Shown here piece by piece: positions 21,367-58,245 of a DNA stretch of 64,000 bases. Position numbers and translations under genes: made by a program. Where the stretch lies: positions 1-64,000 of the forward strand of contig NW_026570299.1 in assembly GCF_019649055.1 (NCBI RefSeq), given 5' to 3'. This DNA comes from Paramacrobiotus metropolitanus (Eukaryota > Tardigrada > Eutardigrada > Parachela > Macrobiotidae). Position 1 is the first letter of the stretch, and each line of letters opens with the position of its first letter. The notes under the pieces were generated by a model. That model worked only from the letters and a program-made list of their open reading frames with translations. It made no database searches and had not been told where the DNA came from.

Positions 21367-21508
21367 TCGCTTTTTCTCATATTCCGGTCACTTTTAGGGA
21401 CAGATTGCTGCAAATGAGATAGCCGCTCACTTCCTGAGCATGCGTACAACCGGGTGACCGAAATATGAAACCATACACTCAAAGTGACCGGAATATGAGA
21501 AAAAGCGA
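21367..21508. mobile_element. 142 bp MITE in a pseudogene intron
   Basis: The 28-bp ends TCGCTTTTTCTC... and ...GAGAAAAAGCGA are perfect inverted repeats. The element is flanked by AGTACT on both sides (21361-21366 and 21509-21514). The matching intron of the intact cyclase has AGTACT once and no element, so this is a clean insertion after the duplication. No coding capacity. Confidence 0.9.
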
Positions 21509-23046
21509 AGTACTGACTGTTGAAGCGTACAGGAGTTAAATGAGACCTACGCCAGGGGGGGGGGGCAGTTTATCAGCAGGCGAACAGATATCCCATAAAA
21601 TGTGGAGCCATACCTTTAATCTGGAGGGGAAACGTATTGTGATGAATGCCAGCGGCGACCGGGAATCGGATTATTCGATTGCGCAGATGGATTACAGTAC
21701 TGGTCAATTCCAGGTTAGCAATGCATCTGTGTAAGGTCAATGCATCTGTGTATCCGTACGGTTCGCCGGATCCCGCTCGCTTACCTATGGAACCATTCGG
21801 TACGCTTCTATGTTGCATAAACTGCCTCATTGCAATAATGAACCAAAACTGAAATTGCGATTATAGAGCAATGCAGCAGCTACCTGCCATTAACCCTTAT
21901 AGTTCTCCTTGCACTAATCAACGTACGCTATACGGGCTGCATTAAGTACTTAAAAATTTTAAAATTAACATCAACGATGGCGATGATTGTGAGTTATGCG
22001 TATTGTAGCAATTGTGGCACAAGTGGCGAAAGGTACCGACACGCCGCTGCGTCCTCACGTCTCCGGCGATGCCTGCCCACCGGAACTGCGCAGTATCATG
22101 GAGCACTCGTGGAGTGATGCACCGGAGTCGCGTCCCACCTTGAAAGACATTAAAGGCCAGCTGAAGAAAATCCCCGGCGCTGAGCAAAGCAATCTCATGG
22201 ACAGACAATCTGATGAAGCGTATGGAAGCATACGCCACGGATCTGGAAGGTCTTGTCATGCTGCGTACGGAGAAGGTCTATCAGGAAAAGCAGAAGTCGG
22301 AAAATGTCCTGTTCGAGGTGGTTCCACGGTATGAGTTGCGGTACCAAACATCGTAACGGCAGGTCTGTAATCGAGAATGTGTTCTGGATTAGATCGGTGG
22401 CGAACCGCTTGAAGCAAGGAGAAACCGTGGAACCAGAAGCGTACGACGAGTGCTGCATTTATTTCAACGACATTTTCGCATTCACCACGCTGTCGGCGTC
22501 TAGCACGCCGTTGCAAGTGCTTGATCTGTTGAATGACCTTTGCAGTGAGTACACGCTTGCAGTGCATGGCATGTTAAGCTTTTAACTTAACCGAGGCACT
22601 TCAGTTTTGTTTAATTTTAATTTTATTAATGCGCTCAATGTTTTAGCACTGTTCGGCGGCGTTCTGGATGGTTTCGATGTGTATAAAGTGGAAACGATTG
22701 GCGATGCATAGCGCATATATGGTAAACAGCACAGCCTGATATAGTTGTTTGTATAATTTGCAGACACTAATGACCGTTGGTGATTTGCCCAATTTAACAG
22801 GTGGTCAGTGGCTGCCCATCCGCAAGGTATCTGCACGCTCGCGAAATCGCTCGCACCTCCCTGATGCTGATGGAAGGGATCAAACTTTAGATCCGCCATC
22901 GTCCCACGAAGCAACTGAAACTGCGTATTGGGAATCACTCCGGACCCGCTGTCACTGGAGTCGTGGGACTGCAGATGCCACGTTACTGCTTGTAAGCATG
23001 CCGTCAATATCTTGTAAAACGTACGTAGGTGTATTTTCTAGGAAAA

Positions 23047-23283
23047 TGTAACCAACTACCAGAACATCACCCATGACTACTTGTTCAGCATTTTGGGCTT
23101 CGAGACTCTAGAACCCAATGGACCGGAAGCTACCCGCCTGCTTACGGAAGTGGGTGGGAGGGTACGGCAAGAAACCGGCGAGGCACGAGCATCGGAATAA
23201 CTACGCCACCGTATCAGCATAGAAATCCAGCGCTGGAACGCGTTCAGGGAACAACTCCATCCGGAGCAAATTGAAATTTAAAT
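23047..23283 (+). pseudogene. Retroelement C-terminal fragment inside the cyclase pseudogene
   Basis: One frame reads DYLFSILGFETLEPNGPEAT, then VGGRVRQETGEARASE, a TAA, then LRHRISIEIQRWNA and a final stop. The pattern (aromatic start, ETL..GPE, GR...TGE.R, RIS.E.QR.NA) is the same as the C-terminus of the retroelement ORF at 47879-48550 (ETFGTFG, GRKIRDVTGEPRS, QRLSLAV..GNA). So this is a short, dead, 5'-truncated copy of the same family, in sense orientation within the interval between exons 21 and 22. Confidence 0.65.
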
Positions 23284-23805
23284 CAGTTGTTCCATGTTCT
23301 CAGGCCTCCCGAGGCCGTTTTGTGTTGAGAGAGTGTACTGCATGTGTTGTGATGTTAATTGTTTTTTTCTATAAGCGGAATGGGTATACTAAAAAATATA
23401 CTTTATCATCGACTCAAGCATACCACGCAAATCTTGTAGCGCATGTAAAAACAAACGAAACGCATTTATGTACGGTTCTGTGTGAAAATTGCCAAGCTTA
23501 TTATGATGCGTGCAGAATGTCACAGTTGGAAGGGTTAATATTAGGTTCGGAGTTACGGTGACGATTGCCAACAAAACGGAAAGCGTGGGAGAAGGTATAC
23601 GTTATACAGCGAGAGCCAGAATACCAGAACTCGTTATCTCATAAAAGTAATAAAAGCTTTAATGCCTATGTTCGAGAAACGCCGACAAATGGTTTGGGCA
23701 TTGGCCAGCCTCAGCTCGGCCGCGGAGTTTCGTGGTATCGTCAGAACATGCACGGCCACCGATAAATTAAAGAGTGTAGGCGTATGCGCGTGTATGCCAT
23801 CGAAG

Positions 23806-29790: not shown

Positions 29791-29886
29791 ATCCCTGCTA
29801 ATTTTGCCCAGTATTTTTCTTTGTATGTATTTATTCCTTTTGGGTACAGTAATTTTTGGCGTTTTCTCGCCTGGTTTCTTCTGTTA

Positions 29887-30829
29887 CCGGGTCAAGAGCC
29901 CGTTTTTTGTTGTTCAAATATTTGTCCAATCAGCTCTGCTGCATGCTGTTCAAGCGGACATGCTTAAAAGCGTAAAAAAACGCGGTTTTGCCAGCCGGTT
30001 TCTGTTCCCGTATAAAAACTTGAGTATACCAGGGCAGCAGCAAGTGTTTTGTGACTTATTTTTCTAATAACTAGTTGTTAACAAGGAATCCTCCTTCCCA
30101 ATATTCAGGTGTTATGAACAAATTACATAATTATTTTAACAAATTTGGTTCACATTAAATTTGTTGCGCAGCAGCGGTCAAAAGTCGAAATATTTTCCAT
30201 TCTGTCATGGTCAGTTGCCGCATACCGGTTCCTTCAAGAGTGCAAGTAACTGCCAGTAAAATTAATCATAATTTTAATGGTTTATCGTAAATAGTCGAGT
30301 TTCGCGTTCGTAATGGGAATTAACGCATAAAATAAGTTTGATTAGGAACTTGGGAATCATGCGTGAACACCAAGCATGCACATGCTTACCGAAAACAGCC
30401 CGGCACGAAACCCTTTAATAAGAATAACTTTATTGAAGATATGTTCAAATACAATTTACTAAATGCAGCACTGAGCATGCCTCGTATTGTGCCATGACAG
30501 CCGGAGTTTCCGCTACCCAGCCGAATTGTTAATTGGATTGATTTTACCGATTACATAATTATGGCCATCTAAAAGTGGAATGACGGCTCACAAGACTCTC
30601 CAGTCTGTAGAGAACGATTGCTGCCTAAACTACAGGTCATTACCATCTTTTTGGGTACGTACCGCTTCATCGCTATGAAAAGTGCGACTATAATGTGATT
30701 TCCGCAGTATCTGGTGTTCTAAAAAAAATTCAAATTTTCCTAAGATTTGAGCTATTATGAAAGGGAAGACTTTGCAGTTACATACATAAAAAAGCTTATT
30801 GACTTATTTCGCAGCAAATTTTTCACGTT
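29887..30829. other. Spacer after gene A copy 3
   Basis: Keeps one CGGGTCAAGAGCCCG stem-loop with a T run (about 29889-29910). Otherwise AT-rich with no gene seen. Confidence 0.4.
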
Positions 30830-31228
30830 TTAATGGTCAGCAATAATTCTGAATTGCCGATATGTAAATCTTTTGCAGGAAGTACAGATACGAGCATATA
30901 AAGCATGCAGTAAAAAAAAGCTGTAGCTGTAAAAAGTAGGTCGTACATAAAGCATGCAGTAATCTACCAGTCTGTTGACTGCCCTTGTATCTTTCGTGAT
31001 CACAACTTCCATGTTTCCGGAAGCAGTTATTTAAACAGTGTGTCTCATGCCGCGTGTTATTTCTGAGTACTCAGCGAGTAAGCGACTCATCAGTCATCAG
31101 ACACCATCGTTAACGGTAGTCGATACGCAAAGGGTGTCCTAACTGCCAGCAGCGCTACAACGAAGCAAGGTAACTGTATACCAATTATCTTTGACAATCG
31201 GTGAGCGCTCCTCCGACCCATTATTTTG
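30830..31228 (-). pseudogene. Frameshifted counterpart of the small secreted-peptide ORF
   Basis: Homologous to 19544-19858. The start and signal-like stretch are kept (HRLSKIIGIQLPCFVVALLA). A one-base gain and an 8-bp repeat (CATCAGTCATCAG, about 31090) break the frame after LPLTMV. Downstream, RLVDYC persists in another frame. The start codon region lies ~0.6 kb from the cyclase start, on the opposite strand. Confidence 0.6.
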
Positions 31229-31827
31229 ATAGGCTGCGTGGCATTACATAAACGGACATGCCCCATTTGTGCCGGTAGCTCCGGAGCGGGACACCTCAAT
31301 GGAAATACGAAACCAGTGCGATTGTCGATGGAAGAGGACACCTTCCTGTGTCAGAGCTTTGAGCATTCAGCGCGGCGAGTTATCATTAAACGCCTCTTTT
31401 TTTATGCGTTCAAAATAATAAATATAATCGTAGCGACGTAGATAAGAACAACATACATAGCAATCCGCTGGATCCTAGTAGGGATTACGTCAGTATACAG
31501 TAGTCAGGTACCCAAATCAACTGCCTTGCGTCCCATTTACTAGTCTCCTTAAATGTTACAGCCAATGGCCGAGCGGGATCGAGGTGCAGGGCCGGACAGA
31601 GTATTTTCCGTCTGAGCCAGCCGCTTGTCTGTGTACTGTGCGACTTACTGTACATACGATGTACGTAGCCAAAGTAGATGCGTAACAAAATCGATTTGAT
31701 CGCTGATCACGCTTTATTCAAGTGTTAGTTCCCGCTGCCATCATTTACGGTTAATATTAGTATTTCTTGAAAGTTTATGCGGCGTTCTCGTAATGCACAG
31801 CGTGACCCTTGAGTGGCTCTTGCAGAA

Positions 31828-34800
31828 ATGTCGTATACAGCAATCGCTGTTGTGACCTTTGTTGCTGCTGTCGTCTGTAGCTCACCGGTGAACGTTATCT
31901 TATTCGAGATCGGTCTGGGTGGCAACCGCACCGCCACGTCGTATCTGAACGTGGCTCCCGCGTTCAGTCTCGCTGAACAGCAGTTAAATGCCCGCTATGG
32001 AGAGAATATGAAGTTCATGCACGTGCATAAATATGATAAGAATATCTCTGTATGTGTTCTGGACGAGAAAAAAGGAGTTATGGGCCTGGACACCAAAGCC
32101 ACGTTCTGGACAACCAAGTTTTATTACCGAGAACGCTTGTCTAACGATACCGTTATGGCCATCTTCGGACCCGGTTAGTGGCGTTCATTAATTTTTGCAA
32201 ATTGTATATACTTATTCAGTGCCTTTTAGTTTGCATGGTTGTACTGAATTGAAATTAACCGTGACCATAAGTTGTGATCGTTTAATTACTATTCAAAGTT
32301 AAGTATTTATGAAACCAACATGCCTCACCACACCGGTAAATCTGATTAGCGCTACTATGCGCCACTATGACATAACATTTAAAAAATCAAAGCAAGTTAC
32401 AACTTACGAAATTTCATATTAATTATATTTTCATAAATTTAATTGCAACAAGAGGTAGTACGTGCGTTGGTATAATTAGGAATTTGGAACAGTCATAAAA
32501 TAAATAAAATACATTGTTTTGCTTGGCATTGGCATTAGGATGTAATATACTCTGGTTGCCATCAAGGCAAAAGCATTAATCACACCACTGTTAGTGATAA
32601 AAGGATCAGATCTATTGCGTCTAGAATGTCCTTTCCGCGGTGCAGTTACAGTACACCAAATATTCGTTAGTGCTTATGGTTGGTACTTGGCAGTACGTTG
32701 CGCCCGTCTTCGTCGTTATCATTTAGGATTTAAATCGCTAGATTTCGAAATGTAGTTCATGGTCACCTTTCAGGTTATCGCGCAGTCAGCGGTATTAAAA
32801 TTAAATATATCGAGCATATGTTGTTTAACTGTTCTGCTGTAAGCAAATGGACCTGTTTGTAGGTTGCAGCATTTCAGGAAACTCTGTTGCCAGTTTAGCC
32901 AAAGGTCAGAGCATTTTTTAATCCTTACCTGAAATGCATTACGATTACTTTGTGAAGATAACTTGCCAATGCTTCTCTTGCAGCTTGGGACAAGCCTCTG
33001 ATCTTTGGGTAACAGCGCCTTTGTGTAGAATTTCATTACGGAAATAACCTCAGTTAACTGCGGATATGCACGCTTAATTTCAGGGTCCCAGGCAGTGCGC
33101 TGGCTTTCAACAAAACACGGTATCCCACCCTGACGCGTTTGTCGCCCTATACACCGGAAAACCTCATCAGCTTTCTCTTGAAACTTCTGGGGAAGTATCA
33201 GTATAATTCCATCGGAGTGCTTTGTGACGCATCCAATGATCACCTTTCTCTGTTCCTTCCTCTGTGCCTGGAGCTGAAAAATCCGGATAAGCCGATACTA
33301 ACCAAGAACAACATTAACGCATCGCATTATTTGGTCAACTCCGACGAGAAGAGGAATCTGTCCGATTACCTGGGCCAGCTTCGCTTGGTAACGAGAGGTA
33401 TGTACGCTTTTAACCAGGAATTCAGTGTTCGTGTTAATTTGACAATTTGTTCTGGACAAAAAACATAAAAATTAATAGGAGCGCAACATTGCAACAGCGG
33501 TTGATTTCAAACTGCTCTTGGCTTCTGCTTGCAGTGATTTTTATTGTTGCTGAAAGCAAACGCTTCCGCCAAATTATGGTACGTAAAAACATAGCTTTCG
33601 AAAATAAAGATTTAGATGATGCTCGACTGCAGAGTAAAAGCGAAAAAATATGAGCGATAGTCTACGATCAACAGCAACCGAATACCTATACCGAATACTT
33701 GTATACGTACTTCCGCTGAAAAAATTTGTTGCTTAATTTACAGTTAATGGCATCGGAGAAGAACATGACAAATGGCGAATATGTAAGCTTTTCCTAGGCC
33801 GTAGCATTCCTTGGCAGAGTTGTACTGGCTTTAGGAATGCAATACTTCAGCTGATTTGCAGGTTTATTTCGCCCTTGAAGTGTATCGGAGTCCGACATTC
33901 TTCGGCAACAGCTCGTGGAATACCGGCAACACTGATGGACGAGACGAGGTAATCCTCCGACGTATCGCAGGCAAAAGTAAAAAATATACTTAAAAAATAG
34001 GTAGAAACACGTATAACAGGAAATATGGATAGCAATAAATTAAATGGTACTAAATCCCAAAATTAAAAAAAAATAAGATCTGCTTACCGTTAGCGAGTCA
34101 AGGATGCAGATATTTAAAGATAAATTTGCTCATGATTCCGTGTTGGTTGAATGGGAACAGGAGGCCAAAGAAGCCTACAAGTCCATGTTTATCCTGTCAC
34201 TACGAGATCACGCCAGCGACAAAACTACGCAGCAGCTTCTTGTCAATATCTCCAGTAGCGAACCTTACACACTGAACGGCTCCCGACCAAACCAACGGGA
34301 AACTGTTAGCAACCGTCAAACCGAACTGTTGTCCGTTACTGTTGTCCGTTACTGCTGTGCGTAATTATTTTATCTGTAGGCTAACCCTTTTGCATTGGGA
34401 TTCTACGAGGCGCTTATGATTTACGGCCAAGTATGAATCTGTTTTTACTGCGTGATTATGTTGGATAAGTACTGACGGTTGAATCGTGCAGGTGTTGAAC
34501 GAGACCTACGCCAGCGGAGGCAATTTATCAGCCGGCGAACAGATATCCCATAAAATGTGGAATCGAACCTTCAATCTGGAGGGCAAACGTATTGTGATGA
34601 ATGCCAACGGCGATCGGGAATCGGATTATTCGATTGCGCAGATGGATTACAGTACTGGTCAATTCCAGGTTAGCAATGCATCTGTGTAAGGTCACTACTG
34701 CAGGTATGACCGCGACAACCAAAATCGAGAATGCTCTCAATCTACAGTTCAGTTTATGAAACGCTTCAGAGAGTCTCATACGCAAGAAACAACGAGATAA

Positions 34801-37800
34801 ACTTAAAGCCGATTAAAAGCATTATAATTATGGCCCGATAATACTCCAGTACTGAATGAACGCGTTATAAATGTAGCAAGCATTGATAAACCATACTTTT
34901 AAACGCTTAGAGACAATTTGCATGCAAGTGTTCGAAGTATTCGTTTACTTTGCTACAGCCGGTGCTGGAGTACCGCGCGTACACCCAGCGTATCGACCCG
35001 GTGCTGACCAGTGAGGGAAAAGAACGCGAAATCAAGTGGTACAACCGCGATTCGCCTCCGCCTAACCGGCCGCGCTGTGGATACCTCGGCAACGATGCAG
35101 TCTGCGTTCGGGGTACTTGTGACATATTTCTTAGCGTACTGTGACTTGTTCAGAAAATTGTTAATCGCGTCAGAGCAAAACATTATCCTGGCCGCGTCCG
35201 TCGTCTCGGCTGTGATTTTCGTGGGGATCGTCTCGGTAATTGCGTTACTCGTTTACCGGTGAGAATTCACTACTGTGTGAACGAAAAAACTTGTTGTGAG
35301 ATGAGTATATTGCAGAAAGCGTAAACTGGAAGCGGCAATTAATGATCCATGGTGGAGAGTGCCTCCCGAGGAAATCAGCGCCAAATCAGACCGACATGGC
35401 CTTTCCGTGTCGATCAGTCGATTAAGCTTAGGCAATATGGTAAGCGCCATTTTGACGATTTTCTCTATTTCCAAAGGTCACCAACATAGAAGTCGTTTCT
35501 GTTTCACTGACTTTTCTCGTACTCCGCAGAGCGTCGCCGACGGAGCAAGCTCCGCTGGTGGGCATTCACAAGTGTTTGCGAAAACCGCGCAGTACAAGAA
35601 CAAAGTGGTGTGCGTCAAGAAACTGCAGACATCCCGACGCTTCCACGCAACGCGCAAAGAACTGAAAGAAATCAAAAAGGTACTGATAGAACTTAAAAGA
35701 ACATTCGATGGTCTGCTGTTGACATGTCATGGTTTTGAACTGCAGTTACATGACATCAACAACGACAACATGAACCCGTTGGTCGGTATCGCCGTCGAAG
35801 ACGCCCAAGTACAAGTGCTGTTCGAATACTGTCAGAAAGGCAGTTTGGCCGATGTCCTGGAGAACGAGGCAATTAAGCTGGATTGGTCGTTCCGGTACTC
35901 GCTGATCGGTGACATTGTGTCGGTAATAAATTCTTTAAATAAATTACCGTAAAAACCAATGGAGAACGGCTGTGTTATGATGGATAGGGTTTGGCGTACC
36001 TCCACGATTCACCCATTAAATCACACGGCAACTTGACCAGCTCCAACTGTGTGATCGACAACCGGTTCGTACTGAAGATCACCGATTACGGCCTGGGTTT
36101 CCTCCAACCGTTCCTGAATAAGAATGTGGAACTGGCGAAAACAGACGAAGGCCGGCTGTTATGGCGTGCTCCGGAGCATTTGCGAGCACAGATGCCACCA
36201 CAAGGAACCCCAGAAGGTCAGTTGGACGGTTATTCTTATTAAACCGTATCTGTAGGTGGTGTAAGTGTTGGGTAGATGAAGTTCTCTTGTTGGTTTATAG
36301 GCGATGTGTACAGTTTTGCGATCATCTTGCAAGAAATCGTTCTTCGATGTCATCCGTACGGTTCGCCGGATCCCGCTCGCTTACCTATGGAACCATACGG
36401 TACGTCTTACGTTGCAAACGTCTCGAATTGCAATAATGAAAGAAACTTCACAGTACGGTAATACAGCAAGGCAGTTGCCACCTGCCAAGTAACCCTTACA
36501 GTTTCTCCTGAATAAATTTTTGCAGTAATTTACGTAAGACTAAGCTGTACCGGGTTGCATTTATACTTGATCTTGCAGGTATTATTTGCAACTAGGCACA
36601 TGGTTTAAGTTTTAAGGCAATGTATAAGCATACGTTTTAGTTAGTTTTATCTTCTTAGGTATATATCTTTATTACAAACCATCACTTAAACACGTGTTAA
36701 AGAAGCAGTTACACAAACAACAACTCGTTAAACATTTCCGCTTTCTCCACCGTGCCCAAAACAGAAACCGCGTTACCACGCTGTATCTCTATAGACAGAC
36801 GTTGTCGAAGAAATTCGTGCGAGCGGGCTTCTCCATACTTGATTAGATTATAGAATTAATAACAACGGTGAGATAATTAAGAGTTGCGTATATTGTAGCA
36901 ATTGTGGCACAAGTGGCAAAAGGTACCGATCCGCCGCTGCGTCCCCATGTTTCCGGCGATGCCTGTCCACCGGAGCTGCGCAGTATCATGGAGCACTCGT
37001 GGAGCGAGGCACCGGAGGCGCGTCCCACCCTGAAAGACATCAAAGGCCAGCTGAAGAAGATCCCCGGCGCTGAGCAGGGCAATCTCATGGACAATCTCAT
37101 GAAGCGCATGGAAGCCTATGCCACGGATCTAGAAGGTCTTGTCATGCTGCGTACCGAGCAGGTCTATCAGGAGAAGCAGAAATCCGAGAATCTCCTGTTC
37201 GAAGTGTTGCCACGGTATGAGTTGCGGTAATAAGTATTTCATAACGGTAGTTTTGTAATTGAGTTTGCGTTCTGGATTAGGTCGGTGGCGAACCGCTTGA
37301 AGCAAGGAGAAACCGTGGAACCGGAAGCGTACGACGAGTGCTCCATTTATTTCAGCGACATTGTCGGGTTCACCACGCTGTCGGCGTCGAGCACGCCGTT
37401 GCAAGTGGTCGATCTGTTGAATGACCTTTACAGTAAGTAAACGCTTTCAACGCATAAACCTGAGACGCTACTTAACCAAAGCGCACCAGCTGGTTTCATT
37501 AATACAAATAATGCTTTCAACTTTTTAGCACTGTTCGACGGCATTCTGGATGGATTCGATGTGTACAAAGTGGAAACGATTGGGGATGCATACATGGTAA
37601 ACTGCACGGATTTACACTACCCGTGATAAAATTTGTGTACACCGCTGACCATCGGTCTGATTTAACAGGTTGTCAGTGGATTACCCATCCGCAACGGTAA
37701 CCTGCACGCTCGCGAGATCGCTCGCACCTCCCTGATGCTGTTGGAGGGGATCAAACGCTTCAGAATCCGCCATCGTCCCACGGAGCAACTGCGACTGCGT

Positions 37801-38560
37801 ATTGGCAATCACTCCGGACCCGCTGTCGCTGGGGTGGTGGGGCTGAAGATGCCACGCTACTGCTTGTAAGCGCATAACCAGAATTAACTAATCGTAAAAC
37901 TGTCCAGTTGCATCGTGGCATCGATCCCGAGCACAGCGTGGACGAAAATAGATAATGAAAAATAGGCGAGACTTGCATATTGTAAACGTTGTATAATACT
38001 ATTAGGAATTGCTCGTCTACTCTATTCCTATTGCGTGCGGAATATCACATACGTGTTGTTTCTTTAGATTTGGAGTTACGGTGACGATTGCCAACAAAAT
38101 GGAAAGCATGGGCGAAGGTACACACAAAAAAACGAAACTATTACAAAATCAGTGAAGCATTAGCGTAAACGTGATAAAAATATTAACGGGAGCGTTGTTG
38201 TTGAGCACAGCTTTGAAAATCCACATTAGCGACGACAATAAACTCATCCTGGATGGGTTCGGCACCTTCGACGTTACGTTGCGCGGTGAACTCGATGTCA
38301 AGGTAAATTTCCTCTCGCTGGTCGGGCAATAGTTTAAAGTCTGTAATCCGTATCTGTATGATAGATCCACTTGCACGCATCCAGTCCGGCATACTTGTAG
38401 GTTCTCTTGGCTATTTATCGGTTTGTCTTTGCAGGGCATTGGTCCCATGGTCACCTGGTGGCTTAACTCGGAGAATGTGGAAGAACCGCCACCGCTGGAT
38501 GAAGTCCCGCCATCTGGCTCGCAGACCACTGTGGAGGCCACTTTGGAGCACCCGGAATAA
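31828..38560 (+). CDS. Receptor guanylate cyclase, natriuretic-peptide-receptor type (24 exons, 1112 aa)
   Basis: Exons: 31828-32173, 32863-32904, 32984-33008, 33084-33397, 33535-33578, 33744-33782, 33862-33948, 34110-34304, 34380-34430, 34492-34668, 34959-35112, 35174-35258, 35316-35439, 35530-35679, 35746-35922, 35988-36216, 36301-36399, 36899-37214, 37281-37432, 37529-37596, 37669-37865, 38068-38117, 38211-38302, 38435-38560. All phases match; total 3339 nt. The end of exon 8 (donor ACT|GTTAGC) is the least certain. Order: signal peptide (1-19); extracellular ANF-receptor-like domain (to ~490, with [18 protein letters not shown]); membrane helix (~495-518); kinase-homology domain (~560-780) with HGNL in place of HRD, so a pseudokinase; helix; cyclase domain (~885-1070) with [16 protein letters not shown] and MPRYC. 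Normally such receptors make cGMP on ligand binding. Here the usual catalytic-loop Asn and Arg are replaced ([13 protein letters not shown]), so activity is doubtful. Confidence 0.92.
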
Positions 38561-38957
38561 AAACAGGCACCACGGTAGAAACTATCGGGACATTGTACAT
38601 TTTAATGGATCTCATTGCTGAATATAATTCTGTTTTGCTACTCTCCTTTTCGTAACTCCTTGTGGGTTTTTTTTCTTTCGAAACCACGCTTTTGCACCTG
38701 TGCTGCTACTGCATGCTGCTTGCCTATGGACGGTCATTTGCGCGTATAGCCATTCCGAACAGTTAACTTATGTAACAAGTACATAACTACGAGTATTTTA
38801 CTCGTACAGGTTGAGGTGCAATTAGAATTACCGCATCTTCAGTTATGCAGATGTACGTTCTACATACACTTTGTTCATTTTACGCACGGTACTGCACAAA
38901 ATGCACTATGTTTATCCCACAAGAACTATAATATTTGCTCGCAATGGAAGTACAGCT
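38561..38957. other. Intergenic spacer
   Basis: Follows the cyclase stop (an AATAAA overlaps the stop codon at 38555-38560). No gene seen. Confidence 0.4.
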
Positions 38958-39686: not shown

Positions 39687-42600
39687 TTATCCAGTCTTTG
39701 AACGGCGGAGCGAGTGGCTCATTTCCATTCCTTTTTGTCCTCCATTGGAGAATCCCTTTTTCGGAAATGTTTTCCATTCTAACCAACTGTATCCCGCCAA
39801 GGCCGGAATGCCAGTCATCACCATAATCAAAAGATGAAACGGCAAAGATAATACTGTTGAGTATCCGGCTGCGATAACATTGCCAATAGCCTACAATCCA
39901 AAGAACAGGTTACTAAACTGCAGACACGTGACTGCAGATTACAGAAAAACTTTTATGTTGGTGATAACATACCGTCATAAACTGATAGACTCCGAAAGCA
40001 GCAACCGTTTGAAGAGGATAAGCGCTTCCCAAATACGCCATTAGCTACAAAGTATAAAGAGCAACAGGTATTACGTATAACATACGTGATACGTCTTACA
40101 AGCTACAAGGGAAACAGTTCGTTAGATAATTAAGAGGAGTGACGCTGTACCGGGTACCAAATACATGTACGGGAACTTTTCTTTTAATTTCGCACATTTT
40201 TCGCATTGCTGTATGGCAATATGGCATGGGGTTATAGTATTCTGAATTGCGCGCGATTTCCCTGATACTCAAATTTGGTACCATGTATCGGGTCACTAGT
40301 TTTCGTTTTCCATCTCGACATCCATTGCATCGCATGGAAATCGGTAAATCGATTAGCCTAGAATAATTATTAATCACCTGATTGTTCCAAATTGCATCGC
40401 CTATGAAGAAAAACTGCATGTATACAACAGTTTCAATCAATAAGATGGCATTTTCTGTCTCACCGAATCCTATTAAAGCTGTGCAAAGCATGGCGATATA
40501 CGGACTGCAAAAGAGGAAAAATACGGTCCTGTTTAATGAAATAAGAAACACTTACCTAAAAAAACATTAAAGACATAAGAAAAGCAAACGAAATTTTACA
40601 AGCGTAGATGTCACCTCAGTGCAACATGTACGCCAAAAACGCACATAGTTAAATTTACACACCTCGGTCCAATATAGGACATTTCACTGGTCATTTGTAG
40701 GGACGACAACGGGGGCATGTTCAAGAAGATCAAATAGAACGCTGTCAGATGCACGATAAATCCCGCGACTAGAAACACATCTCGCCCTTTCTTGATCGAC
40801 CAGGCACCAAAAATTCCTAGGAACACACCACCTACAGCAATAATCTTTAATGAAACTGCGCCTTTTCCTATAAGTCGCGGCGTATGACAGCACCTGTTAT
40901 TTCTCCTACTCCTTGGAACACTCCGTTCAGCCCAACGAGGGATTCTCGTACGTTCCCGAAAGCGCGAGTGTAACCAAGCGCTGTGCCGTTGACACTGGAC
41001 CAAAACGTCGACGTAAAACCTATCAAGATTTCGAAGCGAACAAATCCGTATGTACCCATTTCGAGAAAAATCACTTACCAATGTAGAAGAAATAAGGGAT
41101 GAGCAACATCATTCCATTCTTACAACCCAAACGAATGGTAGCAGCTGCAAATCATTCGAAAGTACGCTGACGAAAACCATCTTCTTACATATCCAGTGAG
41201 CTGACAGGCCCATACCCAAAGTAGCTTTCGCTCCCACCGGCATTTGGTTGATCCTGTCAACAAAAACATTGGAAACATTTATTTCCCGTTCAGACGGGTA
41301 CTTCTCATAAGAAAAAATGGGATTTTCTCTATCATTATGAGCGGTTTTCGACTACCATCGCAAGAGATAATCGAGGCAAAAACCGAAAAGAGCCGAAAAG
41401 GCGTAGCACCAGTCTAACTTTGAAGGCTTACTTTTGCGTGTGTCTGTACTGCTTGGCATTCGGCCATGGATGTTTTATCAGGACGAACACCAGTGTTCCT
41501 AACGTCGCAGTCACCGTCAGTGTAATAAAAACGGCTATCCGAGTGGGATCCTCGATTGTTGTCGCACCTCGCAGCATGAGATAGTAAAACGTACTTCCGG
41601 CTGGTAAACTGCATACATATAAAAATTCCCATAAAAATTTCAAGAATTCGCAAGCAGACGTGATATAGTGTACCACATCTGGGAAATTCCCCAAAATATC
41701 CCAGTATTCCTGCAAAAAAATTGGCGTAATTCAGAAAACTGAACAATCTATCATCAACAGTTACCCAACCTTTCTATCGTGTTTGGCGTAGAGTTGCTTG
41801 TTGAAAAGTATCCTTGAACGGCCCAGACGATACCAACGCCGAAACCAGAAATGGCAGCACACACAAAAATTACGCAATACACCGGTCTTATTAAAGCGGC
41901 AATGTTGGCGATGACGGCAACTACAAGATTCGAAATTTTCGAAGATGACAAATTCCCATTATTAAAATTGAATACAAAAACTATCTGCACATACTCCAAT
42001 AGCGCTCCAAAATCTAAGCGGATTAATGTAAAACGTTAACTACTCGCGCATGTAGCCGGCAGATATGTTGGCCTGTTGACTGTTGGCGAGCCCGGCAGGA
42101 AAGTGGTTTTTCTCCAATAAATCTGCCGAAGTGCTCCCACAATTCTGCCGACCCTATGCATTGCCTATGGGAACTCCAATATATCAGCTGAACCGGCGCA
42201 ACAGTGAAATTTGATATTTTGGTTGAGCGCGAGCCGGCGATAGCACAGCCGGGCTGTAGAATGAGATACATCATAGTAATTATATACAGCCGCCTAAGCA
42301 TAATTGTACCGGCACTAAACACAGAGAAGCAAGCGCTTTCCTTGCGCCGTGTCTCACCCTTGCAGTGGAGCATTTCTGCTGAGTGTGGATTTATACACAG
42401 ACATCATCGCAGAACGTAGTAAGTTATTGAATTTATTTCTTTTTTTGCAAATAACCGTAATGTTTACGCCTAAAAACTGTGGATGATGGGAATTATCCTT
42501 AGACAGTCTCACTTAAATATGAAAACTCACTTCAGCGGTCAACCGTATCTGCTAATTGTAGTTTATACTAAATCAAACAACGAAAATACTACGCCATAAC

Positions 42601-45600
42601 AGACTCCAGTATTAATTTTTAAGAAAATGATAATACACGCTTAATGCAGTTACGTTTAATCACGCTGACGCACTCTTTCATCCATTTTGCTTTTCTTCTG
42701 CCACGGGCCATGAATCCGCTATTTATAACTTAATTACAGTTACTTCGCTCTGTACAATTGTTTACAATGGGAGCAACTTTGGCCGCTGCAGCCCCTAATT
42801 AATTAGAAGCATAGCGCTATGATCTCTATCCTTTTTATATATGCCGCCTTTGGAGCTAGCATCATGATTGTCACCTTAGGATCCCGTTTGCATAGATTAA
42901 TAGAGAGGTCTTTAGTCGCTGCGCTTGCATCAGACGGCTGGCAGCACTTGTACCGTTGTACGAACGCAGCCTAAGGACGTTACAATATTGTATGCAATAG
43001 AAAGTATTTAAAGTCCTGTAAAAGTACAAATAATTTAAACTATTTTTGTGCAAATATCCGGTGCAGTAGCTGTGATTGCCTTTAATATTATTGTTTCTGA
43101 CTTTGATAGTAGAGCAAAACTTTATACAGATACCTAATTATTATTATTTGCAACGCAAACGAAATTCGTTGTCAACAATACCATTGTTGTTATTAAAAGT
43201 AGAGGGTCTTTATGGGTTATTCAAATCCAGACTCACAAGATTACGTATATTACTTATTCGTACCTAATCGAAAAAGCTCCGGCGATCGTCCTAAATGTGT
43301 ATAGAAGTACACTTACTGCATATGCCGTGGAGCGGCGTGGACAGATGCAGTTAAAGATAATATTATTATGCAGCCTAAACTGTTTCGTGTAAACAGCCGG
43401 TTGGTTGCTGGTTCGAAAAATTAATCTAATATCGTGTCCGACAAGAGCGCTCAGAATTATTTAGCAGACAATAGTATGCCGGCGGACTGACTAGCGCTCG
43501 ACAGTGAATATCAAGTTTCGTTGTTGTTCTTGTTTGTTAGATCTATTGGAGTTCCTATAGACAATGCTTAAGATCAGGTCGTCAGGACTAACGGTGCAGT
43601 TCGGCAAATCTGTTATTGGACATGTTGTTTCCAAAATTACAGTAAAGTTTTATGAGTTTAATTTTAGCAATACCGCTACATTACATGAAGCTTTTAAGTA
43701 AATTTCACAAAATAAACGCGATTACAGTATATACGGTACAGTCCGTGAAATTAAACAGAATAAAACGTTTCTATTCATAAAAACTTTTAACTACGGTATA
43801 TTCAGATTAGTTACTTACTTCTTGCAGTGATGATGAATGATGCCGGTTGTCCTGTGTCTGCATTAACAATCAGCATACCCGCTTATTTGTAACAACTAAC
43901 TTCAATTAAGCTTTGCAATAAGCAAGAGAGCGCGCTTCTGTGAGTCTAGTGTCGGTGCATCTGCAATTCTGCATCTGATACTGCGGCCTACCGTGTTATT
44001 GCCGCCTTCCGCTCAACAAAAGTATCAAATTTCACTGTTGCGCCGCTTCGGCTGATATATTGGAGTACCCATAGACAATGCATAGGGTCGGGTGGGCAGA
44101 ATTGTGGGTGCAGTTCGGCAAATCTATGGGAGGAAAACCACTTTACTGCCGGGCTCGCCGACAGTCAACAGGTTCACGCGTATGCTTACTACGTACGCAA
44201 GTATCGGGCAACTGGCATTACAGCAAGACGTAATCGACCGGAGAGTACTTATCAAAAATCATCTAAATACAGCAGAAATACAGAATGTATGTATGTCCTT
44301 TACGGAAATTCATTACGGAAATACAGCAAATATTAACGCAAATGAAGTCTCAGCAAAGCTGCGGTCTGCCAACCTGCATTTTCAAATTACTGTAGCCGCT
44401 CGCTTGAGTTATACCACACAGTTGATGTACGGGAAAAATGCGCATCAAATATACATACTCTGGCCGGGCAAAATGCACGATTCTTATTTACCGTGCTTCT
44501 GTAACTCTTTCTGTTACATTTTTCGATCTGATCTATCTGAGGTTTAAAAAAACTTATCAGTCTAAAATTTGACACCAAAATAAGGCCATAAACTTTGAGT
44601 TTTGATGTATGTACGAGTTTAGCAGCTGATTTGTTGTGGTTTTTGGGGTGCCCCTGGAAGGGGGAGGCACATTGAGCGACAGTATGCTGGTGCCTGAAAA
44701 CTGATCGTTCCTGTGGAATACAGTGCGGTTTGTCTAAGAGATTTTTAAAATTGAAAAGAGAAAGTTATCACCTTAAAAACTGATGGACAATATTCTCAGA
44801 ATAAACGTCAATGAATTTAGTACAATCGCGCTGGTCCGTGCATTTGGCCCGGCCAGCGTGTGTATATTTGGTGCGCATTTTTCCCGTACACCAACTGTGT
44901 GGTATAACTCAAGCGAGCGGCTACAGTAATTATTTTGAATGAAGATACAAGTTATCGAATTGGGCAATAATTTATTCTATTTAATTTCACAGACTGGGTA
45001 TACCATTGTCAGTTGTGTGCTGCTCTTGAAGAACCGGATTTAGAAATTTCGACAGCGCTTCAGAAAAATTCTGATTTTCCTTAAAAATTTTGCATAAACC
45101 GGTTCAGCCGCACAGTTGGACTTAGCATGCAATCTCCAACTTTAAGGAAATCCAACTTTCACTGTTGCTCTTATTTTTCGGACCTGTTGGAATGCCCATA
45201 AACAGTATGTAGGGTCGGATCGTCAGGACTTATGGCGCAATTCCATAGATCTATTGGTCGTCAGATCAAAATAATACTTTTTAATTCTGGATGTCCAAAT
45301 CTTGTATGAAATCGCCAACTAAACTGACAATATTGACATGCTATGCGGAAGTCGCACCGCGACAACCGCACTAGATGACCAAACCTACTCAATCGGTAGA
45401 GTGGGAATATGTTCTGGACTCCGTAAGTGGTACTACTGCCTACTTCCGCTAGGTACGAGCGGATTGCTGTGCCTAACGAAAGTTACCGAAACCAAAACAC
45501 TCAGGAACTTCCCAAATGTTTAATCACCAAACCGAACGAACGAACAAACAGAACAGAACGAGATATGAACTTCCTTCTAACCTAGAGTCACACGACCTTT

Positions 45601-47224
45601 CAGCTACAGAGTAGAAACAAGCTCACAGATTTAGTTGAAGTTAGAAACTTCAGACTCTTCAGTTAGACCAGAATCGTGGATGCGATTAGCGATCAAATGC
45701 GTTAGATAAGAACAGCACATCGTACGAAACGGAACAGACAACACGTACGTCGTAACACGTACGTACGTAATACGCGCAATCTATGCATAGCGCGTTAATA
45801 TATTGCCTATATGGTGATAATTTGAAGGTAATGCTTTCTTAGAAAACTTTTTAGTTCTTTTACAGTCCCATGAGCGCAGGCAATAATGCATCACAAAGCA
45901 CGTGATAATTTTTAAGTGAAACTGTCTAAGGATAATTCCCATGATCCACAATTTTTAGGCGTAAACATTATGGTTATTTGCAAAAAAAGAAATAAATTCA
46001 ATAATTTACTACGTTCTGCGATGATGTCTGTGTATAAATCCACACTCAGCAGAAACGCTCCACTGCAAGGGTGAGACACGGCGCAAGGAAAGCGCTTGCT
46101 CCTCTGTGTTTAGTGCCGGTACAATTATGCTTAGGCGGCTGTATATAATTACTATGATGTATCTCATTCTACAGCCCGGCTGTGCTATCGCCGGCTCGCG
46201 CTCAACCAAAATATCAAATTTCACTGTTGCGCCGGTTCAGCTGATATATTGGAGTTCCCATAGGCAATGCATAGGGTCGGGTCGGCAGAATTCTGGGAGC
46301 ACTTCGGCAGATTTATGGGAGGAAAACCACTTTCCTGCCGAGCTCGCCAACAGTCAACAGGCCAATATATCTGCCGGCTACACGCGCATACTGGATCCCA
46401 GCACTAAAGCAAACTTCGGTCCCATAAAAAAGCACTGCAAAAGGCAATCCATCATATTCGTATCTGGTCGTAATAATGCACAAGATAACACAAGCAAAGG
46501 TTTATTGCATATTTTGATCAGGGTTTACTCACAACAGAGGGACCAACCAAATAGGCGATGGCCTGAGGCCCTGCAAACAAGAAAAAGTTTATTTTAGGAA
46601 AGTTTTCCATGGGCATTTTGACCATCATCAAGCCTAAGAAAAATGCAAAACTTGATGACCACAGATGCCGGGAAACGCACCACAATTTACAGCCAAACAG
46701 ATTTATCCCAAGGTGGCATCGTCCAACACGCTGTGCAACACCACGGTCTGGAAAAAAGCGAAAGTTGATTAGTAAACCTCTGAAAAACCAAGATCAAGAC
46801 ACCTCTGAAAAACAGAAACAATCAAAAAAGAGGACCTTGGCAGCTCGTTTAAATTACTTGCATAAACATCTAAGCTTACTTCAGATATTGTCGATGTACT
46901 GTATGTACATACAATAAATGGATAAATTGTTTTATTCATTTCACTGAAGTATTCGCATCTTTAAGATCGAATAATCCGCCTTTCGAGCACTTCCACAGGT
47001 TTAGTTTTTACCTGCGCCTTTCCGGCGGTCAGTATGAATCGCAGATTAAGCATAAAACCAAATCCCAGAAGAATAACGTTCACAAGTCTCTGCCACTTCG
47101 TGATACCATTCTGATCCGGTAAACCAACCAAACTGAGGGTTCCAGGGACACTGCCAGGAAGTACGTAATGTCCGTAGTTTGGCTCTTCACAGCTAGCTGG
47201 CCCGCTAACGTCGTTCTTCTCCAT
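39687..47224 (-). CDS. UNC93/MFSD11-like major-facilitator protein (14 exons, ~493 aa; one in-frame TAA)
   Basis: Exons, 5' to 3' on the minus strand: 47224-47012, 46747-46660, 46570-46529, 41920-41770, 41709-41674, 41608-41432, 41253-41216, 41144-41079, 41019-40894, 40867-40663, 40504-40464, 40400-40378, 40044-39973, 39890-39687. Phases agree throughout. Landmarks typical of the UNC93/MFSD11 branch: LLGFGFMLN in the first helix, GFGVGIVWAVQG, RNTGIFWGISQM, WSSVNGTALGYTRAFG, GVFQGVGEIT, ALIGFGDAIWNNQ. Expected topology is ~12 membrane helices. MFSD11 and its relatives are poorly characterised, and their substrate is unknown. Exon 2 contains a TAA at 46705-46703, where the family usually has Tyr (GxxSLA-type context), so this copy may be non-functional or the base may be wrong. 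The end of exon 2 is the weakest splice call. The 4.6 kb intron 3 contains a large inverted-repeat element. Confidence 0.8.
42047..42518. repeat. Left inverted arm of the 4.3 kb element
   Basis: Reverse complement of 45912-46388. On the minus strand it encodes a signal-peptide-like frame (YIITMMYLILQPGCAIAG, then VAPVQLIYWSSHRQCIGS) that is interrupted here by indels. Confidence 0.75.
43515..45250. repeat. Partial copies of the arm sequence inside the element
   Basis: Three degraded pieces share the core TTTCACTGTTG...TATTGGAGT[TA]CC.ATAGACAATG and GGGTCG with the arms: about 43515-43610, 43930-44170 and 45151-45245, all on the same strand as the right arm. The middle one extends to CAGTCAACAGG. 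This suggests repeated local duplication or insertion of related elements. No complete gene seen between them. Confidence 0.6.
45912..46388. repeat. Right inverted arm of the 4.3 kb element
   Basis: Mate of 42047-42518. Contains an open frame on the plus strand, 46106-46597 (163 codons). It has a signal-peptide-like start (RRLYIITMMYLILQPGCAIA), and the frame continues beyond the arm into unrelated DNA. This argues that the reading frame is incidental, or is the first exon of an element-borne gene. Confidence 0.7.
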
Positions 47225-47431
47225 TTTCCAAGGATATCTTTATAAAATGTCATGAACGGTGAAAGTTTTCGCAATTAGTTTGCACTTTTCGCCCTGATAA
47301 TATAACATCCATCGCTTGGCTACATCGTACATGCGGCTGAAATATTGAGTGTCCGATGAACTGTAACACAGGAACAGTTCCCTATCTGTAGAACATTCAC
47401 TCCTTACAAGTAAGTATAACTTGTATAACAT

Positions 47432-47874
47432 GTACTTCTTGGCCCAGTTTAACACTTTTCGAATCCTGGGTCCCTGGCTCTTGTAGAACTACTGAGATTA
47501 CTTTAGCTTGAAGTAGTAATTTAATGGTGTAATCAGCTCCTGCGTAGCAAGCAAAGAAATTTCAAAGAAAGCTCCGGTTTCTGCTTTAGTTCTGCACAGT
47601 ACCGGACCTGGTACTGTACGTGAAAACCGGCATAAGAAACCAATTATTAATCAGCCAGAAACATGAATCATCAAAATCGACAGATTGCCCACACCCGTAC
47701 TTCGGGGTGCTAATAGTAGCACAACAGTTACTTACACCATTAGATTACTACTTCAAGCTAAAGTAGGAGCTGATTACACCATTAAATTACTACTTCAAGC
47801 TAAAGTAATCTCAGTAGTTCTACAAGAGCCAGGGACCCAGGATTCGAAAAGTGTTAAACTGGGCCAAGAAGTAC
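47432..47874. repeat. Fold-back: two 110 bp inverted arms around a 223 bp loop
   Basis: 47432-47541 and 47765-47874 appear to be exact reverse complements. The outer ends are GTACTTCTTGGCC and GGCCAAGAAGTAC. The loop carries another partial copy of the arm (TTACACCATTAGATTACTACTTCAAGC motif, 47733-47765) in direct orientation. The right arm ends four bases before the retroelement ORF, so the structure may have formed when that element inserted. Confidence 0.85.
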
Positions 47875-47878
47875 GTTT

Positions 47879-48550
47879 TTGCGGGATGAAGAAGTACGAA
47901 TCGGTGTGGCACTTCGTTTCGGACTTCCAGTAGTAGAAGAACACGATTGCGTGAACTGCGGAAGCCATGTGGAGACGAATGGCCACCACGGTCTTTCTTG
48001 TATCAGCAGCAGAGGCAGATGGTCTAGACATACGGAACTAAATGCCGAAATAAAGCGGGCTTTGGAACATGCGGGGTATCCATGTCAAAGCGAGCCACTC
48101 GGACTGTCAGGCATAAACAACTCGCGGCCAGACGGCATGACTCTCGTCCCGGTACGGGATGGTAAGGCGCTGGTATGGGACGCTACATGCTGGGACACGG
48201 TAGCCGCATCGCATGTCCGGGCAAGTGCGAGTGCATCCGGTAGTGTTGCGCATATGGCCGAAGACGTTAAACGCCGTAAATACGCTTACGTGGAAAGGAT
48301 GGGTTACCTGTTTTACGCCCTGGCAGTCGAAACTTTTGGCACTTTCGGTTCGGATTTTATGGAGCTCATCTGTTTCGCTGGCAGAAAGATTCGCGACGTG
48401 ACAGGGGAACCTCGTTCTACTGCGTTTTTGAAGCAGAGATTAAGTCTAGCTGTAGTGAAAGGAAATGCTGCTGCTGTTTTGGGCACCTTGAATATGCGTC
48501 CTAGGATTTCTGATAGCAATAACGATTTTGGCTGTTTTTTTAACGTTTAA
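47879..48550 (+). pseudogene. 5'-truncated retroelement ORF: zinc-knuckle and nuclease-like C-terminus
   Basis: An open frame of 223 codons. Visible motifs: LRFGLPVVEEHDCVNCGSH with a following HHGLSC (Cys-Cys-His-Cys type metal site), RHTELNAEIKRAL, then RPDGMTLVPV...ALVWDATCWDT, and QRLSLAVVKGNAAAVLGTL at the end. This layout is known from the C-terminal part of many invertebrate hypothetical proteins linked to reverse transcriptases. The RPD...WD.T spacing resembles PD-(D/E)XK nucleases, which is my inference. No reverse transcriptase lies upstream, so the copy is 5' truncated. An AATAAA (48615) follows the stop. A second fragment of the family is at 23047-23283. Confidence 0.65.
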
Positions 48551-51985: not shown

Positions 51986-53457
51986 TTAGTATGAACAAGG
52001 AATCTACAGATACCGATCGAATGGCAGCTGGAACCGCTTTTTATATAACTGCCGCTCCAGATTCTTTGTTTACACATGTCTTATTAGCGGGTTTACGAAC
52101 GTGCACTCCGACATCGTCTTTGTGACTGCATTCCGTATTTTCGTATTTACAGCAAACAATGCCAAGTGCCATCGCGTTCTTAAATGGAAAGTAACTGGTC
52201 GCTCTTTTTCCAGATCTCTGCGGTGTGCTGATCCTATTGCATTTCCGTGTTCGTTTTATGGTGCTGAATTTGACAAATTACGGGCATTTCAGCCTAGAAT
52301 GCGTCGATAAAACGTTAACGATGGCGCCACCGAAATAATTGACGACGTAACCGGAAGGAATTAGACATAAAAAGTGTACATTAAAGTTAAGTAGGCGTCC
52401 GAAGACGCCTCTGTACCTTTAAATCGCGTTTATTTTAATTTATGTATTTATTGGCAAATGTTTTAGTGGAACGTTTCATGGCCGGGATACTTCCGGTGGC
52501 TGTATGGCGTTATTCTCGTTGGTCGATCGTTTCTTGCAGCTGCAAACATAAATTTCACAGTTTTGTACGTCTGACTTTAATTACGCTTCAACTGCAAACA
52601 CAGCAGCGCTGTATTAAAAAAAGATGCCTGCGTCTGCGGGTATTGGGGGTTAGCTTTTTTTAGGAACCTTCGTCCTGCAACTCGAAGAGGCTAATTATGA
52701 AAGATCTCCCAGGTGCCGAGCTGAAACAAACACTGCAAGTTTCAGTCAGGATTGAACTTCCATGTTCGCAGCGCTCGCTGACGGTGTTTTCATTGCCGTA
52801 ACACTGGTCGATTAGATATACTACGTTCTAAATATACAGTAATATTCTGCGCCATGAATGACATTTGCATGCCTAAAATGCGGGACTAATAGAAAGATGT
52901 TCTCATAAGACTCTGAGTATTATCTTAAGTACAGCTTGCGTTAGAGTCTTAAAGCTATTCTCCTACAAGCTGCGTCAATAAATTAACACGCAGAGCGGCA
53001 ACAGTGTTCAAGGGGTGCTACTTTCTTAGGATTTTGAATTTGTCGAAATGTGCGGTAGTACGATTAAACAAACTTCTCATATCGCAAGGAGGACGCCATA
53101 ATATAACGATAAAGGTGGCATAACATTTTACTGCCATAAGCTAAGGGTGAGTGTGGTCGTCCGCTCGAGCCTTCTGAGAATGCTGCTGTGAAATTCTAAA
53201 ACTCAGTGACCAGTCGGTACATGGCTGACGAAGCTTCACGGTTATTCCCTAGCCAATTTATTTGCGTAACATAAACCCAAATAATCAATACACATTCACA
53301 TAAAGCAGGAGGGATATTCAGGACCGAGCATTTTCCTTCCTCTGACAATAATGTTGCACAAACTGTGGATCCCTAAGGTAATAAGGCTCCGTGCATAGAC
53401 AAACAGGTGGCGCTTACAGCGTAACGCGGGGGAACGCCAGTCTGCGCCGACAGCTTG
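51986..53457. other. Spacer upstream of the gustatory-receptor-like gene
   Basis: No gene recognised. Short frames at 52101-52310 and 52442-52663 have no supporting features. Confidence 0.4.
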
Positions 53458-55016
53458 ATGAATATACGCTTTCGTAATTACACAGACTACCTAGACATGG
53501 ATCTTAATGACAATAAGGTACCTCCAGCAAACGTCACCAGTAAGTTTCTCAGTGTTTCCCTAAACATTTGGCAAACACTTCTTAAAATCTGTGGAATATG
53601 TCCATTGTGGATTATCGATCCACGAGCCCTTGGCAAATATCGCTGGAAGGTTGTCCTGGCGTATTCCTGGATTGTCACACTTACAGTAATTAAAATCCTG
53701 AATGTAGCGGCCGTTACTCTTCCGTTGCTCATGGAGCGATTAAACGGAAGCATGGAAGAATTTTTCTACGTGGTGTGCGCGCATCAGCGAGAAGTGATGT
53801 CCCTGTTATCCACGCTGACTGTGACGGCAGAATGGCGACACATCCATGCCACCCTCCGATCCATCCGGCACTATGAAGCCGAATATTTCGCCCCACGCGA
53901 ATGGCGTCTGATGTGCGCGGTGACAGTCGTTATCCTGTTAACGGCGGTGTCATTTTGTCAGCAGTACATCGTGTGGTTTAACTTCCACTTCATGTATGTC
54001 AGCGGAAGGGAAGCGGAATTTCTGGCCAGTGCATACGAATTGGCTATTTTTAAGCGGCAATTCGTCCGGTATATCTACTCTGCTTTTACCTTAATCCGTA
54101 CTTGCTTGCTGAATTTTCTGGCATCGTTACTGGCTACCTTCTGCTGTCTAATCGGGCGCTTACTGTTTCGGATAAAGGAAAACCTGAGCCTGGACACGAA
54201 TCAGGCGGTTATGGGCCAACATCTGCGTAACTATTTTGACATGTGTAAGCTAGTTGAAACCTTATCGCAGCGTATTGGTGGATTTGTCCTCTTATTCTTC
54301 CTCCAGTCAGTTATCTTGCTCGTGTGGACGATAAATAATTACGCGAATAAAACGATTATCATCACCATGTTGCCAATGGGAATCCAGGCTTATAACACGA
54401 TGGAGATCATCGTTTGGACCTTGATTGTCACCTTTGCTATGATCTATGTTCATGAACAGGTACATGGTCGCGTAATAAATAAATACTGCATCTGCATTTT
54501 CGACTTCGTCTGATACTTTTATATAAGTGCCTAATACAGTGTCGAAGTTTAGCGTTTTCTGCGAATTTGTTTTGAGTAACTGCAGATTTGATTCCTCCAG
54601 CAACCCTAATTAATTTTTGTTGTTCTGTTTTTAGGCGAACGTAACTAAAGAAGTCCGTATTTTAGCCGCTCACGAGACTTGCTCTGAAGGATCTATGAAA
54701 ATGTTCACCAAATTGTACTGGATCCCATCCAGTCCCACTGGATTTTCCCTGGCTGGCATTGTCTTGGTAGATCGAACATTTCTTGCAACAGTAAGCAGTT
54801 GTCTCCGTGTATTAGCTCGATATACCGCAGAGACTATTGGCCTACAGAACGCAAACGCACCAGCATCGATAATTCGGCTTACCTACGATAACGTTATTGC
54901 AGATGGTTGGCGTTCTGTTCTCCTATGGGACCTTTGTTCTACAGCTAAAAGAAACTCGCTATGAAATGGCTCCGAACTGCGATCGCACTGCGATAAATAC
55001 CACCAAAGTTAGTTGA
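53458..55016 (+). CDS. Gustatory-receptor-like 7TM protein, copy 1 (3 exons, 423 aa)
   Basis: Exons 53458-54459, 54635-54790 and 54903-55016 join in phase 0 (donors CAG|GTACAT and ACA|GTAAGC; acceptors TTTTAG and TTGCAG). Seven hydrophobic segments can be counted: around YSWIVTLTVIKILNVAAV; MSLLSTLTV; the VVILLTAVSF region; LNFLASLLATFCCLIG; GGFVLLFFLQSVILLVW; IIVWTLIVTFAMIYV; and the last, MVGVLFSYGTFVLQL. The end, RTFLAT then GVLFSYGTFVLQL, matches the C-terminal signature of invertebrate gustatory receptors (TY..VL.QF-like, reached through two late phase-0 introns). In arthropods these are ligand-gated cation channels with an intracellular N-terminus. The ligand is unknown here. Two damaged relatives follow. 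Confidence 0.72.
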
Positions 55017-55335: not shown

Positions 55336-55796
55336 TGCCGTGAACTGGTTAGACTAAAATAGTTTTCCCCCTTATATTTTACGCTGTAGCGTATTGATCC
55401 CCAAAGTTCTTTCCGGACAGCAGGAGAAACTGACCCAATAAATAATGACGGAGAGATCAGTACGATAGGAATAATTACCGCAATAATCTATCCTACCGAC
55501 CTTATTCAACGACAGAGAATGAGCTGATAATCTCAATGTGGCATAGCTAAGTCTACGAAACTACGCGAAGCGAGAACTGCATCTCCGACGATAAATTTAA
55601 TTCTAAACTCCGAAACTGCCAGAACTCAGAATGAGAGAGCAAAGATGCCAGAGTACGGCCACACACGGACTTATATGGGCGCGAGGCATATTTGCGTAGA
55701 AAACCAAACTCGACCCGAAACAATAGAGAACATTCGAATAAAGAGATTAACGTACGTTTTAATCACTACGAGTACGGCTATATTCCGTAATAAGAA

Positions 55797-57889: not shown

Positions 57890-58230
57890 ACAGCGGATTC
57901 TGCAAACCCACCTTCAGTTACGAAGCCGAGAAGGTTTCATCCGGCACATGCACCTTTGAGCTCCAAAGCCTGAAAAGTTTCATCCCCTACGTGTACCTTT
58001 CAGCTACACAGCCTTAATGTATGAACCACATCCACCTTTCAGTTACAAAGCCGAATAGGTTCCATCTGGCACACGCACCTTTCAGATTCAAAATCTAAAA
58101 AGATTTTTCCGGCACACGCACCTTTAAGTTTTTAGGTGGATCCCGCACACTCACCTTTCAGTTACAAAGCCGAAAAGGTTTCATCCGGCACACGCACCTA
58201 CTGTTACTATGCCAAAAAGGCTTCATCAAG
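57890..58230. repeat. 43-bp tandem repeat array, second block (~8 units)
   Basis: Same unit as 56815-57195, more degenerate. It ends a few bases before the C-terminal half of receptor copy 2. Confidence 0.85.
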
Positions 58231-58245
58231 CCACATAAAACCTAA

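Follow-up and report, generated by a model that had tools for sequence, protein, structure and literature searches.

The window examined here, a stretch of 64,000 nucleotides of Paramacrobiotus metropolitanus DNA, harbors on its plus strand (31828-38560) a receptor guanylyl cyclase gene of 24 exons and 1095 amino acids, hereafter gene A. Its product is likely to serve as the Asp-donating half-site subunit of a heterodimeric receptor guanylyl cyclase; that it pairs, which partner it chooses and that cGMP is produced are what we infer from its sequence. This is our best reading. It is built on an intact gene under very strong purifying selection, whose catalytic loop carries a focal substitution while its metal-binding aspartates and its guanine-selecting Glu and Cys are retained, and on the existence of complementary receptors that have lost a metal aspartate.

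Joining of the exons one by one gave an AG acceptor and a GT donor at all internal boundaries and 1095 codons with a terminal stop and none before it, which bears out the complete 24-exon gene proposed in the initial annotation of this DNA. The donor of exon 8 is ambiguous, unlike the other boundaries: the first-choice donor would leave an intron of 19 nt, and a donor about 57 nt upstream was therefore used, at which an intact paralog (paralog C, see below) also carries GT. The encoded protein matches the Pfam families PF01094 (residues 44-417), PF07714 (560-814) and PF00211 (881-1065), all above cut-off, and its domains follow the order ANF_receptor ectodomain, membrane segment, kinase-homology domain and class III cyclase domain. 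The single hydrophobic membrane segment was read from the sequence and is followed by RKRK. Together with the Pfam matches it gives gene A the full architecture of a receptor (membrane) guanylyl cyclase, and the guanine-selecting Glu (KVETIGD) and Cys (MPRYC) of this enzyme class are present. An identity as a soluble guanylyl cyclase (sGC) alpha subunit, which would show a soluble haem-domain/PAS architecture, is ruled out by this architecture with its ectodomain and membrane span. Part of an UNC-93-like gene lies just downstream of gene A (40614-41108, minus strand; PF05978, E 2e-9). Exons 19 to 23 of gene A read as follows:

37281-37432, plus strand: exon 19, with the first metal aspartate retained (FSDIVGF, D894)
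37529-37596, plus strand: exon 20, with the guanine-selecting Glu and the second metal aspartate (GDAYM) retained
37669-37865, plus strand: exon 21, with the guanine-selecting Cys (MPRYC) retained and the GNHSGP variant
38068-38117, plus strand: exon 22, the catalytic loop, 50 nt, flanked by AG and GT and in frame
38211-38302, plus strand: exon 23, encoding the C-terminal portion of the cyclase domain

The metal aspartates (SDIVGF, GDAYM), the Glu and the Cys (PRYC) are hence all present, as had been claimed. Compared with the canonical loop FGDTVNTASRMES, the loop of gene A carries Asn to Thr, Ser to Asn and Arg to Lys exchanges, and its leading Asp is a Val. The Asn and Arg of the NxxxR motif (the N/R pair) are held to stabilize the transition state of the cyclase; in gene A, they are T and K, and the substitution announced by the initial annotation was confirmed in frame in an exon spanning exactly 38068-38117. 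We projected the sampled receptor-cyclase loci of the genome onto the cyclase domain of gene A and counted a column as conserved when it reached at least 90% in the N/R-intact rows. Gene A departs from its N/R-intact paralogs at four of 26 such columns, namely those of the four loop exchanges just listed. The T/K loop is not a product of chance, since each of Asn and Arg occurs in 98% of the N/R-intact rows and the exact T/K form recurs in the genome only in the close copies of gene A. The GNHSGP variant, to which attention had also been drawn, is real; it carries little weight because its Ile column is not strongly conserved among the paralogs. Taken as a set, the catalytic residues of gene A are not those of a homodimeric cyclase of the NPR-A type, with every catalytic residue including NxxxR in one chain, and are those of a half-site subunit of the sGC alpha, adenylyl cyclase C1 or NeoR type, in which both metal aspartates are kept and NxxxR is lost.

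Comparison with structurally characterized cyclases places this pattern in context. The atrial natriuretic peptide receptor 1 (NPR-A, PDB 9bcv) has the same domain order as gene A, and the two cyclase domains align without gaps from end to end (302 bits), with the metal aspartates, Glu and Cys common to both; the NPR-A loop is FGDTVNTASRMES, whereas gene A has T and K for N and R. Mammalian receptor guanylyl cyclases are homodimers (PMC8045692). Human sGC alpha-1 (PDB 6jt0, chain A) keeps both aspartates, the Glu and the Cys (PRYC), and in its loop FGNNVTLANKFES (VTLANK) Thr and Lys replace Asn and Arg, so that its D, D, E, C, T, K set is that of gene A; it is a soluble protein, in contrast to gene A with its ANF_receptor ectodomain, membrane segment and kinase-homology domain. 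Heterodimerization of sGC is described as a requirement for activity (PMC5225109). A corresponding division is seen in the mammalian adenylyl cyclase AC8 (PDB 8buz), whose C1 domain keeps the aspartates and has the loop VDIANKLES, and whose C2 domain has lost both metal aspartates (ASIPGF, IGSTYM) and kept N and R (TVNLASRMDS); unlike in gene A, C1 and C2 reside in one chain and the product is cAMP.

The neorhodopsin NeoR of chytrid fungi, which carries T455 and K459 in place of NxxxR, has no detectable activity alone and supplies the metal aspartates to a site that is completed by RGC1; the catalytic domains RGC2-cat and NeoR-cat are active together and inactive each on its own (PMC12264004). 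NeoR resembles gene A in the T/K residues and in the retention of the aspartates, Glu and Cys, and differs from it in being fungal, in its rhodopsin sensor and in having no kinase-homology domain. NeoR did not regain an activity of its own when N and R were reinstated (PMC12264004), so the loop is not the whole story. Among animal receptor cyclases, ODR-1 and DAF-11 from Caenorhabditis elegans are reported to form an obligate heterodimer in which each provides part of one catalytic site (PMC5225109), and several worm receptor cyclases were proposed to be obligate heterodimers by the same residue argument (PMC8045692). The likeness of ODR-1/DAF-11 to gene A is that of receptor cyclases with a divided catalytic site; the worm belongs to a different lineage and has a smaller family (27 receptor guanylyl cyclases) than the genome of gene A.

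These parallels lend themselves to a simple mechanistic proposal. A homodimer of gene A could form no complete active site. A different receptor cyclase, one that bears N and R, would contribute Glu, Cys, Asn and Arg to complement the two metal-binding aspartates of gene A, and the second, pseudo-symmetric site of the heterodimer, devoid of N and R, would be non-catalytic and possibly regulatory. The division of labor would be that of sGC alpha/beta, adenylyl cyclase C1/C2 and NeoR/RGC1. Gene A keeps its Glu and Cys, which a pure Asp donor does not strictly need, and sGC alpha-1 and NeoR keep both as well. No gene for a heterodimer partner is located adjacent to gene A in the window.

Candidate partners for an Asp donor are found elsewhere in the genome. 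We searched 170 Mb on 533 contigs (G000), in which the cyclase family gave 200 exon-level matches and 129 loops of the form FGxT[VIM]xxAxxME. The pattern with Lys at the Arg position had 17 matches, at least one of them apparently unrelated, and a residue other than Asn occupied the Asn position in 16 loops, two of which are very divergent. Our census covers 138 sampled receptor-cyclase loci whose selection was guided in part by loop type and by resemblance to gene A, and its proportions are therefore not genome proportions: everything readable is kept at 55 loci, a metal aspartate is lost with N/R intact at 41, and N and/or R is lost at 15. Both aspartates are readable at 13 of these 15 N/R-lost loci and all 13 keep both, the other two having one unread aspartate; none of the 138 sampled loci lacks both N/R and a metal aspartate. 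At a metal-aspartate position, the 41 Asp-lost, N/R-intact loci (among L010 to L157) have Ser, Glu, Gln, Tyr, Ala, His, Gly, Val or Asn, within clean motifs (for instance SEIGGF, TQLDGF, SSIFGF, ETIGSSYVV and ETIKESYLV), and in this they are much like adenylyl cyclase C2 domains. The mutual exclusivity of the two kinds of loss has a Fisher p of 0.0017 when shared ancestry is ignored, and a test on independent pairs was without power. On the tree, four to five changes are required for the loss of N/R and 11 for the loss of an aspartate; a single origin of all N/R-lost genes was not rejected (p-AU 0.237).

The strength of selection on gene A can be gauged from paralog C (locus L061, minus strand of contig C163), which is intact and has kept 24 of 24 exons and their splice sites. 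Over the whole gene, the two differ with a dS of 0.39 and a dN of 0.017 (omega 0.042). Over the intracellular residues 500-1060, there are 116 synonymous changes and one nonsynonymous change (omega 0.002). In the cyclase domain alone the counts are 24 and one, where roughly 75 nonsynonymous changes would be expected under neutrality from the site counts. As dS drops from 0.46 in the ectodomain to 0.19 in the cyclase domain, some gene conversion may have occurred; it would not, however, strip out nonsynonymous changes alone.

With these data at hand, one can ask whether gene A is simply a catalytically dead receptor that is productive with no partner and acts as a dominant-negative, a decoy or a scaffold. 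N and R, the residues held to stabilize the transition state, are indeed gone, and NeoR, whose loop has the same T/K residues, shows no activity by itself (PMC12264004). We nevertheless regard this explanation as unlikely. Every other highly conserved position of the cyclase domain is kept, including the metal aspartates, Glu and Cys; a receptor for which catalysis does not matter would hardly be expected to show one nonsynonymous change against 116 synonymous ones in its intracellular part; and both aspartates are present in every N/R-lost paralog in which they can be read. A dead receptor thus explains the conserved catalytic half of gene A poorly. The term cyclase-dead, used by the initial annotation, is probably misleading, since gene A has kept the Asp-bearing half of the site and has a loop corresponding to those of sGC alpha-1 and NeoR, subunits inactive alone and needed in a working heterodimer. 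The alternative wording of the same annotation, a dominant partner, fared better in one respect: the role as a partner is close to the reading that we favor, although gene A would contribute an active half-site instead of acting as a dominant-negative.

It appears even less probable that gene A forms an active homodimer in which Lys and Thr, the latter with the adjoining Asn, stand in for Arg and Asn with reduced or altered activity. The exchange of Arg for Lys is the commonest change among the N/R-lost paralogs, and the positive charge is thus usually kept, a finding that would suit such a substitution of function. On the other side, NeoR shows no detectable activity alone with the same T/K set (PMC12264004), and sGC, with T/K in alpha-1, is described as needing heterodimerization (PMC5225109).

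The history of the loop can be followed in the relatives of gene A, one of which is found in the window itself:

20006-23602, plus strand: block I pseudogene, located by tblastn of gene A on the window, with the same loop from 23546

The block I copy, for which the shared loop had been correctly described, has no match to residues 424-734 of gene A (the membrane segment and most of the kinase-homology domain) or to its first exon, and is therefore truncated and not merely frame-broken; its omega against gene A is 0.38 over 136 cyclase codons. Copy B (locus L062, plus strand of C163) has two frameshifts and one stop in the receptor gene, and its region C163:218300-227300 is 98.4% identical to 29814-38821 of the window over 9 kb, intergenic DNA included. 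Neither of the two window flanks compared (500-3500 and 45000-48500, some of which are repeats) matches C163, so that copy B looks like a limited duplication; its interpretation as a simple haplotig or allele of gene A is disfavored. It may be the already decayed product of a very recent duplication, or an assembly error. The next relative, on contig C229 (locus L063), has the loop FGDTVNTANKMES, in which Asn is kept and the Arg to Lys and Ser to Asn changes have already been made; its guanine-selecting Glu is a Gly (KVGTLGD). This gene, the nearest to gene A among its outside relatives, is a possible intermediate with the Asp half alone intact. Gene A, its copies and the C229 relative form a group with an SH-aLRT support of 99. 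The substituted loop common to gene A, paralog C, copy B and the block I pseudogene, together with the two exchanges already present in the C229 relative, supports the earlier proposal that the change predates the duplication; on these sequences, the loop change is focal and old.

Decay is visible in this group, as copy B is frame-broken and block I truncated, and one might suspect that gene A is itself decaying or that its frame survives by chance, all the more as its 98.4% identical copy has acquired two frameshifts and a stop. This is very improbable. Gene A has neither a stop nor a frameshift and shows no relaxation of selection, and the intactness of paralog C combined with strong purifying selection excludes decay for both genes. 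The initial annotation had argued against simple decay and named dN/dS as the check; the values found, 0.042 gene-wide against paralog C and 0.002 in the intracellular part, are not near 1 and strongly support its view. That the real transcript regains Asn and Arg through an alternative exon that has escaped notice, a refutation likewise named at the outset, is still harder to credit: the analysis rests on genomic sequence, in which the introns flanking exon 22 encode no canonical loop or spare exon for one on either strand, a motif scan of the window found no other, and paralog C has conserved exon 22 along with its splice sites.

The arrangement that we propose for gene A, an Asp donor completed by an N/R-bearing receptor, is already known in itself from sGC, NeoR and ODR-1/DAF-11; the novelty would lie in how large the complementary repertoire is. 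We tentatively suggest, as a possibility that falls short of being probable, that the receptor cyclases of this animal form heterodimers in a large number of combinations, with a small class of Asp donors, gene A among them, acting as co-receptors. They would be shared by a far larger N/R-bearing class, many members of which have lost an aspartate and would be unable to work alone. For C. elegans, a sensory repertoire expanded by the combination of receptor cyclases has been proposed at a smaller scale (PMC8045692), and our literature search on receptor cyclase expansion in tardigrades found no paper. If the proposal is correct, a seemingly cyclase-dead receptor would be an obligate working half, and the loop alone would mislead on function. 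Moreover, the genome-wide split between Asp-lost and N/R-lost receptors would allow obligate pairing to be predicted, and it would become testable whether heterodimeric receptor cyclases widened the sensory repertoire by combination.

The remainder of the window holds several features of separate interest. A search of a phage database gave no match. Hydrophobic, multi-span open frames at 53428-54510 (plus strand), 55759-56253 (minus strand), 58136-58862 (plus strand) and 63049-63483 (plus strand) form a family that occurs in both orientations, has no significant Pfam match and looks chemoreceptor-like by eye. The segments 9127-9426 and 18313-18612 are near-identical repeats (97%), in and beside which an open frame of 148 amino acids occurs twice, its first copy being without a Pfam match. 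Finally, 42148-42520 and 45908-46280 are inverted repeats, 98% complementary and 3.4 kb apart, which are part of a sequence present in many copies in the genome and probably represent a mobile element.
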